DNA from: a virus
IMG/VR virus record: IMGVR_UViG_3300045918_000492
Span: 1 to 29,739 of that record
Strand: one strand, 5' to 3'
DNA length: 29,739 nucleotides
Part shown: piece by piece, positions 14,949 to 18,192 of the stretch
Layout: every line of letters starts with the position of its first letter
Numbering within the stretch: position 1 is the first letter of the stretch
Made by a program: the position numbers and the translations under genes
The notes under the pieces: generated by a model
Database searches by the model: none
Seen by the model: only the letters and a program-made list of their open reading frames with translations
Told to the model about the DNA's origin: nothing

Positions 14949-14976
14949 TGCCCCCGGCCTTCGGGCTTGGGGGCAC
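14949..14976. other. Strong hairpin immediately before the first attC
   Basis: TGCCCCC (14949-14955) and GGGGGCA (14969-14975) form a G+C stem around a TTCG-containing loop. There is no T run directly after it. It could terminate or pause transcription entering the array, or mark the old border between phage DNA and cassettes. Confidence 0.45.
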
Positions 14977-15066
14977 ATAACGTCGTTTTTAAGGGGCGCG
15001 GCCACTGAACGACCAGAAACCAGGGAAAGCGGCTCACCGCGTCCCTCTTCAAAAACCTTGTTAGCT
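14975..15066 (+). other. attC-type site A
   Basis: R'' ACATAAC (14975-14981) and R' GTTAGCT (15060-15066) bound a 92-base imperfect palindrome. The 5' arm GTTTTT-AAG-GGG-CGCGG pairs with the 3' arm, whose complement reads GTTTTTGAAGAGGGACGCGG; three bases are unpaired on one side only. One-sided extrahelical bases are the hallmark of folded attC sites used by IntI. The cassette that should precede this site is not recognisable. Confidence 0.8.
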
Positions 15067-15084
15067 GCGGAGGGTATTAGCAGC

Positions 15085-15330
15085 ATGAAATCAAAAGTTT
15101 GCAGAAAGCACAAAGATAAACCTGCCGTGATTTATGGGGAGTGCGTAGGTTGCGAAATTGAACAACTGCACAGCGAAATAAAAGCCCTGAAAGCCGACAA
15201 ACTCAGACTTGATTGGCTGGCAGATACAAATAATCAAATCGGAGAAGTGCTATTGCCGAAAGAGTGCGTTTTGAGCCACGTTGAAAGCATGAGAGATGCT
15301 ATTGACGCGGCTATGGCAATAAGCAGCTAA
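15085..15330 (+). CDS. Cassette 1: small zinc-finger-like unknown protein
   Basis: An 81-residue protein, MKSKVCRKHKDKPAVIYGECVGCEIEQLHSEIKALKADKLRLDWLADTNNQIGEVLLPKECVLSHVESMRDAIDAAMAISS. A C-x2-H ... C-x2-C group near the N-terminus looks like a metal site; a coiled coil follows, then an LDWLADTNN ... RDAIDAAM segment of a type seen in small phage proteins. Function is unknown. Cassette borders: the DNA after the site A junction (TTAGCTGC, 15061) is complementary to the end of this cassette (GCAGCTAA, 15323-15330). The stop codon is part of the R'' box of its own attC. Confidence 0.65.
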   Translation: MKSKVCRKHKDKPAVIYGECVGCEIEQLHSEIKALKADKLRLDWLADTNNQIGEVLLPKECVLSHVESMRDAIDAAMAISS

Positions 15331-15448
15331 CGACTAAGCTCACCTGAAACATGGGAAACGAAACTATGATTGAAATGACGGAAACACCCACGGCGGATAG
15401 TGCCGAAATCGCCCGCCCCATGTTTTCAGGTGTAGCGCCTGGTTGGGC
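15325..15448 (+). other. attC-type site B (end of cassette 1)
   Basis: R'' AGCTAAC (15325-15331) and R' GTTGGGC (15442-15448). The 5' arm CTC-ACCTGAAA-CATGGG pairs with the 3' arm, whose complement reads CTACACCTGAAAACATGGG, again with extra bases on one strand only. The site is 124 bases and contains the ATG codons used by methyltransferase 1. It is strongly similar to site C. Confidence 0.75.
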
Positions 15449-16043
15449 CAGCGATGACGGGAACGTCCAGCTATGGAATGCGGATTGTCTTGATGTCCTG
15501 CCCTTGCTATCTGGCATTGATGCCGTGATTACCGACCCGCCCTATGGAATTTACAAGCACGGCGGCAAATGGGGGAAGAAGGCCGAACTTTATTGGGACA
15601 CTCAAACCCCAGACATTAGCGGACTCTTGACGATGGCCCCCTATGTTGTGATTTGGGGTGGCAATTACTTTCCCTTACCACCGTCACGTGGGTGGCTGTC
15701 TTGGTTTAAGCCTGATTCTGTGCCAAGTGCTGCAAGCATGGAGCTTGCCTGGACGAACCAAGACATGAATTCTAGGCAGATTTCCCAAAGCATTGCAGCG
15801 ACGAATGCCGAGCGTGTTGGACACCCGACACAAAAGCCGATTCGCGTCATGGTCTGGACGATGGTAACGGCAAGAGTGCCGCAAGGCGCAACCGTCCTTG
15901 ACCCATTCATGGGCAGCGGGACTACTGGTGTCGCCTGCATCCGTTCTGGCCGCAAGTTCATTGGCATTGAACGTGATGCCAAATACTTCGAGATTGCCAA
16001 AGAGCGAATACGAAAGGAATTACAAGTAGGCCGGTTATTCTAG
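15351..16043 (+). CDS. Cassette 2: beta-class DNA methyltransferase
   Basis: A 230-residue DNA methyltransferase (probably N6-adenine). The order is that of beta-class enzymes: catalytic DPPY at 62-65, a variable target-recognition region, GHPTQKP (157-163), then the SAM motif DPFMGSG (184-190) and FIGIERD. The first 33 residues (ATG at 15351, alternatives at 15366 and 15375) are encoded by the attC of cassette 1; no ATG, GTG or TTG in this frame lies between the junction at 15443 and DPPY. Both ends are nearly identical to the next gene, while residues 66-178 are unrelated. No partner restriction enzyme is present. It may protect phage DNA. Confidence 0.85.
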   Translation: MGNETMIEMTETPTADSAEIARPMFSGVAPGWASDDGNVQLWNADCLDVLPLLSGIDAVITDPPYGIYKHGGKWGKKAELYWDTQTPDISGLLTMAPYVVIWGGNYFPLPPSRGWLSWFKPDSVPSAASMELAWTNQDMNSRQISQSIAATNAERVGHPTQKPIRVMVWTMVTARVPQGATVLDPFMGSGTTGVACIRSGRKFIGIERDAKYFEIAKERIRKELQVGRLF

Positions 16044-16045
16044 CG

Positions 16046-16170
16046 GCCCAACGATTTAGCTCGCCTGAAAACATGGGAAACGAAACTATGATTGAAATGA
16101 CGGAAACACCCACGGCGGCAAGTGCCGACATCGCCCGCCCCATGTTTTCAGGTGAAGCGCCTTGTTGGGC
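16046..16170 (+). other. attC-type site C (end of cassette 2)
   Basis: R'' GCCCAAC (16046-16052, exact RYYYAAC) and R' GTTGGGC (16164-16170). The arms again pair through CGCCTGAAAACATGGG on the left and CCCATGTTTTCAGGTG on the right. 125 bases. Cassette 2 therefore runs from TTGGGCC at 15443 to its own GGCCCAAC end, a complementary pair as expected. Confidence 0.78.
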
Positions 16171-16834
16171 CAGCGATGACGGGAACGTCCAGCTATGGAA
16201 TGCGGATTGTCTTGATGTCCTGCCCTTGTTGTCTGGCGTTGACGTTGTTGTGACTGACCCACCGTACATGGTGCAAGCCGGGAAAGGTGGTGGCGCTTTC
16301 GGGAACTGGGATAGCCTTGTGAACACTGGGGGTTTTACCGACGCTGGCGTTGACCATTCTTTCGTGACTGCCTTTGAAAACTGGGTGGTGTTTTGCTCCA
16401 TTAAGCAACTGCATGGCCTGATTGAAATAGCCGAGCAATACCCACGGTGGAACCTGATAACCTGGGCGAAACCAAACCCGGTGCCGACGTGCTGCAATAA
16501 GTATTTGCCGGATGTTGAGTACATTGTTCATGGCTTTGGCAAAGGCAAGCTGTTCGGAGACTACAAAGACAAACAGAGTTTTTTCCACCAACAGACCGGA
16601 AAGAAGGTAAGCGACCACCCGAATGAAAAGCCGGTGCCACTGATGATGAAAATGGTTGCCCTGGCTGCGTGGGAAGGTGCAACCGTCCTTGACCCATTCA
16701 TGGGCAGTGGCACAACGGGGGTTGCTTGCATCCGTTCCGGGCGCAAGTTCATCGGCATTGAGCGTGATGCCAAATATTTCGAGATTGCCAAAGAACGAAT
16801 ACGAAAGGAATTACAAGTAGGGCGGTTATTCTAG
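16073..16834 (+). CDS. Cassette 3: second beta-class DNA methyltransferase
   Basis: A 253-residue paralog of the previous gene. DPPY is at 62-65, DHPNEKP at 181-187, the SAM motif DPFMGSG at 207-213, and the last 52 residues from GATVLDPF are identical to the first enzyme. The middle (residues 66-200, MVQAGKGGGAFGNWDSL ... WAKPNPVPTCCNKYLPDVEYIVHGF) is different and longer, so another target sequence is likely. As in the first gene, translation can only begin inside the upstream attC (site C). The two genes differ by exchange of the recognition region, like variants produced by recombination. Confidence 0.85.
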   Translation: MGNETMIEMTETPTAASADIARPMFSGEAPCWASDDGNVQLWNADCLDVLPLLSGVDVVVTDPPYMVQAGKGGGAFGNWDSLVNTGGFTDAGVDHSFVTAFENWVVFCSIKQLHGLIEIAEQYPRWNLITWAKPNPVPTCCNKYLPDVEYIVHGFGKGKLFGDYKDKQSFFHQQTGKKVSDHPNEKPVPLMMKMVALAAWEGATVLDPFMGSGTTGVACIRSGRKFIGIERDAKYFEIAKERIRKELQVGRLF

Positions 16835-16836
16835 CG

Positions 16837-16924
16837 GCCCAACGTTTGAAGTAAGCCGCTGGCCGGGATAGCCGCCCCTGACAGCGATGCTCCAACCCAG
16901 TCGGCTTGAGTGATCTTGTTATGC
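16837..16924 (+). other. attC-type site D (end of cassette 3)
   Basis: R'' GCCCAAC (16837-16843) and R' GTTATGC (16918-16924). The 5' arm AAGCCG-CTGG pairs with the 3' arm, whose complement reads AAGCCGACTGG, with one extra base on one side. 88 bases. The left edge matches the end of cassette 2 up to GGCCCAACG and then diverges, so cassette 3 carries a different attC from cassettes 1 and 2. Confidence 0.78.
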
Positions 16925-17178
16925 CGTACAGTACGAAGAAAAAACGAGGTTGCCCCACATGCGATGGTGTTGATGCGAAAAGTTGCATGAGGTGTAACGG
17001 AAAAACCAGGATGAGCGACTGGCATTACACAAAATCAGGATGGGCGCACATCTCACAACTGGATGCTAAAGATGCCATGGAGTTATTCGGAGATACGATT
17101 TCCTCTCTAAAAAAGGAATGCCCAGATGTTTTTCAGTTTTTGGTGGATAAAGGGCTGATCGTGGCCAGTGCGGCATAA
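16921..17178 (+). CDS. Cassette 4: small CxxC protein
   Basis: An 85-residue protein, MPYSTKKKRGCPTCDGVDAKSCMRCNGKTRMSDWHYTKSGWAHISQLDAKDAMELFGDTISSLKKECPDVFQFLVDKGLIVASAA. Two CxxC pairs (CPTC, CMRC) with Gly resemble a DnaJ-type zinc knuckle; the rest is helical. Function is unknown. Its ATG lies inside the R' box of site D, two bases after the junction, and its stop lies in the R'' box at its end. TTATGCCG at the start and CGGCATAA at the end are perfect complements, so this is an intact cassette. A TTG start at 16906 is less likely. Confidence 0.65.
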   Translation: MPYSTKKKRGCPTCDGVDAKSCMRCNGKTRMSDWHYTKSGWAHISQLDAKDAMELFGDTISSLKKECPDVFQFLVDKGLIVASAA

Positions 17179-17216
17179 CAGATATTATCCCGCCACTAGG
17201 CGGATATACACAACAG
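17173..17216 (+). other. Degenerate attC (site E) or attI candidate before intI
   Basis: R'' GCATAAC (17173-17179) closes cassette 4. After it, a short palindrome TATTATCCCGCC-ACTA-GGCGGATATA (about 17184-17209) follows, but no GTTRRRY box is found before the intI ribosome site. It may be an attC truncated when intI became fixed downstream, or part of a non-canonical attI. Confidence 0.5.
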
Positions 17217-17226
17217 GAGGGGAGAC

Positions 17227-18192
17227 ATGGACATTCAGCAAGCACTTGAGATGACACGAAATACCATCCGCTTTAAGCACTACTCCTTGAAGACTGAAAA
17301 GTCTTACCTTGGGTGGGTCAAGCGCTATTGTTTATACTGCCGGAGTCATGCCGAAGGAACCTCAGAGGACAAGATTAAAGGCTTTCTGGGTGGAATGGTA
17401 ACTGAACGCAACATATCGGCATCCACTCAGTGCCAGGCCCTGAATGCGATTGTCTTTTTTTATGCACAAGTTCTGAAGCAGGAGATGGGGGATTTTCCCG
17501 ATTTCTCACGAGCTAAAAAGCCGCGTCGCTTGCCGGTGGTGCTTTCTGTGACAGAGGTCAAGAATTTGCTTGGTCACCTATCGGGTCAAAATTGGTTAAT
17601 GGTCTCCTTGCTCTATGGCGCCGGTCTCAGGCTCAGCGAATGTCTCCGTCTACGGGTAAAGGACGTCGATCTTGGCCGGGGAATCATTACGGTACGGGCT
17701 GGCAAGGGCGACAAAGACCGCACGGTTATGCTGCCAGCGTCTCTTGCCGATGCCCTCCGAGGGCAGCTAGATGAAGTCGAGCGCATCCATCGGCAAGAAA
17801 AGGCGCGGGGGATCTCTGATGTCGAGCTACCCAACGCCCTCGCCAAAAAATACCCGACTGCCGCCTCTGACTTGGCTTGGCAATGGATGTTTCCAGCCCG
17901 AAAACGTTCGGTTTGCCCGCGTACCGGTGCCGTGCGCCGCCACCACATCCACGATAGCGCCGTGCAGAAGGCCGTGAAGGCAGCGGCCAGAATGGCCAAG
18001 ATTGCCAAACAGGTCGGTCCGCACACCCTACGCCACTCCTTTGCCACTCACCTGCTTGAGGCTGGCGAGACCATCCGAACGGTGCAGGAGTTGCTGGGCC
18101 ATAAGGATGTCACCACCACCATGATTTACACCCATGTTGCCCAGCAACACTTGGCGGTATCTCCCCTCGATCGATTAGCCGTCAACCAATGA
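17227..18192 (+). CDS. intI: Integron integrase IntI
   Basis: A 321-residue tyrosine recombinase of the integron type. Catalytic residues: Arg135 (GAGLRLSE), Lys160 (AGKGDKDR), His266 and Arg269 (PHTLRHSF), His292 (LLGHKD), Tyr301 (MIYTH). The IntI-specific insertion that other tyrosine recombinases lack is present at about 203-241 (LPNALAKKYPTAASDLAWQW, then RSVCPRTGAVRRHHI). IntI recombines folded attC sites to capture, shuffle and excise cassettes. AGGAGG precedes the ATG. It is in the same direction as the cassettes and downstream of them, opposite to the usual layout. Its stop overlaps the terL start (ATGA). All catalytic residues are intact. Confidence 0.93.
   Translation: MDIQQALEMTRNTIRFKHYSLKTEKSYLGWVKRYCLYCRSHAEGTSEDKIKGFLGGMVTERNISASTQCQALNAIVFFYAQVLKQEMGDFPDFSRAKKPRRLPVVLSVTEVKNLLGHLSGQNWLMVSLLYGAGLRLSECLRLRVKDVDLGRGIITVRAGKGDKDRTVMLPASLADALRGQLDEVERIHRQEKARGISDVELPNALAKKYPTAASDLAWQWMFPARKRSVCPRTGAVRRHHIHDSAVQKAVKAAARMAKIAKQVGPHTLRHSFATHLLEAGETIRTVQELLGHKDVTTTMIYTHVAQQHLAVSPLDRLAVNQ

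Follow-up and report, generated by a model that had tools for sequence, protein, structure and literature searches.

A phage integron with genes apparently antisense to their attC sites and methyltransferase starts predicted inside the attC of the same cassette

A textbook integron cassette consists of a gene followed by its attC, a position at the 3′ end of the cassette gene being usual, but not strictly required, for an integron. Translation signals in integron recombination sites have been described in two settings. The attI1 site of class 1 integrons carries ORF-11 and ORF-18, of which ORF-11 has a start of its own (PMC8876359). Hairpins formed by attC hinder ribosomes, and a short ORF in the attC can relieve this (PMC8876359), such short ORFs being already known from the work of Jacquier et al., as summarized in that paper. 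Treponema has reverse-orientation integrons, in which intI lies in the gene direction and is transcribed towards attI (PMC3607928). Phage integrons and attC clusters, including methyltransferase cassettes, are reported by Qi et al. 2023 (PMC9892861), in the accessible sections of which we found no description of flipped genes or of a coding attC. A literature search covering few subscription papers and no bioRxiv found neither genes starting in their own attC nor flipped phage arrays, which is weak evidence.

The window analyzed here, a stretch of 29,739 bases, is the entire virus record IMGVR_UViG_3300045918_000492. Profile and RNA searches identify a Bro-N antirepressor gene accompanied by a C4 antisense RNA, and terminase and portal genes are found. 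A small integron, consisting of an array of four cassettes, intI, and an attI-like box, is sited between the antirepressor gene and the large terminase gene, in the order attC A, ORF1, attC B, MT1, attC C, MT2, attC D, ORF4, intI (Table 1). In addition to the match of its integrase to the intI family, the locus has tandem attCs with complementary R boxes and extrahelical bases: neighboring boxes along the chain A-B-C-D are complementary at 7/7, including the attC A right box with the attC B left box. The attCs are located 5′ of their own genes and not at the 3′ ends. The lone box at 17172-17179 has no attC partner and is attI-like by position and box only. The stop codon of intI and the ATG of the terminase gene overlap as ATGA (18189-18192), which would place intI inside the phage packaging operon. 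MT1 and MT2 are assigned to PF01555 by profile match and by DPPY and DPFMGSGTT motifs, with activity predicted only. ORF1, which has its own ATG 25 nt past the attC A box and a GGAGGG-like SD, serves as a control cassette with its own start. Profile family searches with ORF4 returned no family match; its ATG overlaps a box, as the preliminary description had stated, but the overlap is not special, the box being of the common GTTATGC type.

Table 1. Features of the integron, in window coordinates (polarity: extrahelical bases on left arm : right arm, relative to the genes)
Feature	Coordinates	Strand	Remarks
attC A	14975..15066	-	complete; left (distal) array end; polarity 0:3
attC A cassette	14981-15330
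ORF1	15085..15330	+	small, function unassigned; phrog_37882 match 4.6e-10
attC B	15325..15448	-	5′ part of MT1 cassette; polarity 0:2; model R1 141.5 bits (attC B itself among R1 training members)
MT1 cassette	15331-16051
SD-like GGGAAAC and ATG 15366	15353..15368	+	proposed MT1 start inside attC B; conserved in 10 family sites
MT1	15366..16043	+	predicted N6/N4 DNA methyltransferase, 225 aa; PF01555 4.1e-22
attC C	16046..16170	-	5′ part of MT2 cassette; ~90% identity to attC B; polarity 0:1
MT2 cassette	16052-16842
MT2	16088..16834	+	predicted N6/N4 DNA methyltransferase, 248 aa; PF01555 1.1e-25; phrog_67 9e-52
attC D	16837..16924	-	sequence unrelated to B/C; polarity 0:1; within box chain
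ORF4 cassette	16843-17178		attC D is its 5′ part
ORF4	16921..17178	+	ATG overlaps attC D box
attI-like end	17172..17226	-	lone R-type box (minus strand GTTATGCC) beside intI 5′ end
IntI	17227..18192	+	integron integrase, full length; TIGR02249 407.5 bits vs. cut-off 265

Both methyltransferase reading frames are open from an ATG inside the attC-like sites B and C, as first described. We compared same-family attCs in contigs L055, L057, L073, L074, L077, L078, L091, and L104. The first ATG, 15351/16073, is not conserved (CAAGGG in L091 and L104, ATGGGGGAATGA in L078), and the ATG before ATT GAA, corresponding to 15366/16088, is conserved (GTG in L078), and we therefore place the start at 15366/16088. 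The conserved start sits 8-9 nt past GGGA/AGGGAG in most sites of the attC family. The attC-encoded N-terminal tag of the preliminary description is thereby retained, but its length of about 33 residues is not: counted from 15366/16088, the tag comprises 25 1/3 codons. The predicted RNA fold of attC B (z −2.5) leaves the region around the ATG single-stranded, in the apical loop. The MT1 and MT2 frames run for at least 174 codons beyond the box and are not short ORFs that end and are followed by reinitiation. The results support the proposal that the attC before each methyltransferase gene provides the RBS, the start codon, and the N-terminus.

The preliminary description had singled out as decisive whether homologs outside integrons share the N-terminal stretch, and such homologs lack it. 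A tblastn search of phages with MT2 returned 1617 records, and, among the matches listed, alignments mostly begin at residues 37-40 in the numbering of the preliminary description; in the same numbering, the phrog_67 match to MT1 begins at residue 35. Homologs L003 and L004 start with MTYTLHCGDCL and VSYTLHLGDC, about 7 residues beyond the box position, and annotated starts of further homologs likewise fall close to the box at 15442/16164 or immediately downstream of it. Homologs that begin near or after the box are found for several families: PF01555 methyltransferase, C5 methyltransferase (L077), phrog_954 methyltransferase (L078), and phrog_874 (L055). A scan of a genome collection with MT2 returned two distant relatives only, attC B had no match among annotated phages, 399 genomes from a single bacterial phylum were searched by pattern without a match, and the ORF in L074 had no phage homolog by tblastn. 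An AlphaFold model of MT2 was set aside: its mean pLDDT, 48.7, is poor, and it cannot show that the tag is disposable.

According to the hypothesis that the true start is in the gene body, at TTG 15504 or at a non-standard codon, the attC frame is open by chance. An in-frame TTG is indeed present: the assertion that no ATG, GTG, or TTG occurs in frame before the DPPY motif is incorrect for MT1 (TTG 15504) and for MT2 (two TTGs). These TTGs are unlikely starts, lying as they do inside the conserved NADCLDVLPLL segment, and the methyltransferase gene bodies appear to have no plausible start of their own. With shuffled attCs, the probability of an in-frame open start is 0.20-0.58 per site, and a single in-frame case is unremarkable. 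Fourteen more phage junctions of the same build were found, behind attCs of the same or other families and mostly before unrelated genes; in total, 16/16 junctions are open and in frame, vs. 7.0 expected from shuffled attCs, and 16/16 is not chance. A stricter count, 14 independent junctions plus three failures (L171, L104:6078-6204, and the ambiguous L091:3577-3757), gives 14/17, with p = 5e-5 under random frames, the junction counts being post hoc. The distance from ATG to box also tracks the phase of the following gene: sites with 76 nt have one reading phase, three sites with 75 nt have another, and each fits its own gene. Together with the SD-like spacing conserved in most sites, these results make a start in the gene body the least probable of the readings considered here. 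Control cassettes, which follow ordinary attCs in these contigs, for the most part have an ATG of their own 10-36 nt past the box.

Wider searches, one of which fixed the attC right arm only and not the coding part, yielded coding attCs with other stems (L169/L186, L174, L173, L181/L182, L185); the output of the pattern scans, largely unrelated sequence, was filtered manually, and an unchained attC scan was discarded on account of many chance hairpins. L181 and L185 have no clear SD ahead of the proposed start. The start module of the attC family of B and C precedes PF01555, C5, and phrog_954 methyltransferases, a ROS/MUCR-like protein (L074), a phrog_874 protein, and others, and a Mom-like protein (L181) follows a different coding attC. 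Several further arrangements were observed. At L171:1015-1074 and L104:6078-6204, an attC-coded short ORF stops just past the box and the next gene has its own RBS, resembling the known termination-reinitiation (short-ORF) type. At L091:3231-3409, the attC is ~180 bases long, and its loop codes ~46 residues with a zinc-ribbon-like CxxC pattern, reading on into the next ORF in a third phase. Genes for RtcB-like RNA ligases, identified by eye, lie near or directly before a coding attC (L055:3247-4356 and L074:6777-7968). Many cassette genes in L068, L077, L078, and L181 are for DNA methyltransferases or Mom-like modification proteins, suggesting that modification-gene cassettes are an anti-restriction stock.

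The preliminary description assigned attC B and attC C to the preceding cassettes, with crossover at the right box and with methyltransferase cassettes that are startless until inserted behind a compatible attC. That the gene bodies lack a start is in keeping with this scheme; the source of the start, a neighbor's attC, is not borne out by the results that follow. We scored attC polarity from extrahelical bases. The set comprised 36 phage sites, of which one was unplaceable and one had no extra base, leaving 34 scored. Polarity was opposite to the genes at 33/34 scorable phage sites vs. 0/5 controls: 27 sites had extra bases on the right arm only, 6 had more on the right, and 1 had more on the left. 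The exceptions were L074 (unclear), L073:9333 (unscored), and L073:9061 (discordant). The controls, five canonical attCs in all (class 1/3 and phage TJE1), read in the gene direction, had extra bases on the left arm only: aadA12 2:0, OXA-256 1:0, aac(6′)-Ib 3:0, and the two attCs of TJE1 2:0 and 1:0. TJE1 thus has ordinary polarity, and not every phage array appears to be flipped. A start supplied by the neighbor was rejected on this scoring. Box complementarity was rejected as proof of cassette limits, being symmetric and leaving direction unfixed.

The array ends are consistent with the polarity. The right end has the intI 5′ end and the lone attI-like box, and the left end has the complete attC A. 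If attC points left, the intI 5′ end adjoins the array on the entry side for new cassettes, and lies beside the array as in ordinary integrons; the opposite polarity would leave cassette 4 without an attC and would put an attC, not an attI, at the beginning of the array. In L068, another intI-bearing viral contig, the attCs point away from intI, the genes with domain matches (PF14216, helicase, PF01555 methyltransferase) are on the intI strand (plus), and opposite-strand ORFs have no such matches; the layout of L068 appears flipped as in the window. The stretch GGTCGAATT precedes the intI-adjacent box in L067, L068, and L069, as expected for attI. The right end of the array in L055 (L055:5350-5370, GGCACAACAACTTATTATCC) resembles the attI-like end of the window, GGCATAACAGATATTATCC; intI was not found in the L055 contig.

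Duplication and exchange both point to the left box as the limit of the unit. Segments 15329-15544 and 16050-16266 are 90.3% identical, and segments 15883-16056 and 16674-16847 are 90.8% identical; the MT1/MT2 duplication thus reaches from one left box to the next and comprises attC plus gene, with attC D unrelated to B and C. Since the 90% ends are shared from left box to left box, attC and gene would travel together. The middles of MT1 and MT2 (15544-15883 and 16266-16674) are unrelated despite ~90% DNA identity at both ends, as if the specificity-determining center had been exchanged. In other phages, L162 and L187/L191 are 99.9% identical from the attC left box rightwards and are unrelated to the left of the box; a natural exchange appears to have broken exactly at the left box. 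The mobile unit would be the attC plus its own gene to the right, start included. Because five observations give this unit, positions 15442 and 16164, which the preliminary description took for recombination junctions, would be uncut R″ boxes, and the start of each methyltransferase would lie in its own cassette. The proposed tie of expression to the neighboring cassette falls with this assignment, no neighbor being needed.

The best remaining argument for sites owned by the preceding cassettes is that unrelated genes stand behind one attC family and its shared start module. Crossover at the right box would explain this directly, whereas flipped cassettes require separate in-frame fusions at R″. 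Free shuffling should also yield out-of-frame junctions, and none is found among 10 sites of this attC family. Given the opposite polarity, the array ends and intI position, the duplication of attC together with its right-hand gene, and the breakpoint at the left box, we regard ownership by the preceding cassette as very improbable, if slightly less so than a start in the gene body. Our preferred reading, to which we assign a probability of about 0.85, is that the cassettes are flipped: attC polarity would be normal with respect to intI, the genes would be antisense to attC, and the methyltransferases would start in the attC of their own cassette.

A further possibility is that the hairpins are non-recombining relics, the genes of a frozen phage operon having simply kept 5′ ends derived from attC. 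Searched without a positive control, seven other contigs of this attC family, which may be fragments, yielded no intI. Against this, stems are kept by compensating changes (L091/L104, L169, and L174 vs. attC B), exchange is visible at the left box, and the window intI is full length. We consider relics unlikely, albeit less so than either alternative start.

Reading the anatomy of the array, its polarity, its reading frames, and the starts of homologs from sequence, we infer how flipped cassettes might be transcribed from phage promoters, translated, and recombined. The genes would have the direction of intI and of the phage operon, with attC ahead of the gene in each cassette; gene direction and the intI-terminase overlap suggest cotranscription of the array with that operon. 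In the mRNA, the attC ahead of each gene would fold. For MT1 and MT2, the SD and ATG would be in the loop of their own attC, within the long variable terminal structure, and a ribosome would start in the loop, open the hairpin, and read across the 3′ arm and the uncut R″ box before entering the methyltransferase body. Cuts are predicted at the left boxes, 15330/15331, 16051/16052, and 16842/16843, and an excised cassette would therefore retain its whole gene. It is possible, although we hold this only tentatively, that an attC with RBS and start codon serves as a portable module for starting translation, to which unrelated bodies, including those of several DNA-modification enzymes, have been fused in frame at R″ many times.

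What appears to be new is the occurrence of phage integrons with genes that are antisense to attC, that run alongside intI and the phage operon, and in which translation would start in the attC loop. If so, an attC can be coding sequence, and some phages wire their cassettes differently. A start module common to unrelated genes would provide a testable case for the open question of cassette origin: if true, a portable start module would make visible a route by which cassettes arise, with genes, intI, and phage operon all in one direction. Arrays of this kind can lead gene callers and attC finders to misplace the limits of cassettes, since direction cannot be read from box complementarity alone.

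The closest described systems share individual elements with the window. ORF-11 of attI1, like the phage attCs, has SD and ATG of its own in an att site, a frame that crosses the core box, and a helping role for cassettes without a translation start (PMC8876359); the att site is attI for ORF-11 and attC for the phage ORF, and ORF-11 acts by termination-reinitiation with the first cassette, whereas the phage ORF would be continuous with the gene of the same cassette (PMC8876359). With the short ORF of Jacquier et al., as summarized in PMC8876359, the phage attCs have in common that translating the attC would unfold its hairpin to the benefit of the gene behind it; that short ORF terminates and translation begins anew at the next gene, whereas the phage attC start and N-terminus would belong to the gene. 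The phages of Qi et al. 2023 (PMC9892861) have, like the window, attC arrays, intI, and methyltransferase cassettes, and TJE1, from the same study, has ordinary attC polarity, unlike the window. In the reverse-orientation integrons of Treponema, intI is transcribed towards attI (PMC3607928); in the window, by comparison, the intI 5′ end adjoins the attI-like box in the ordinary way, and the genes would be flipped with respect to attC.
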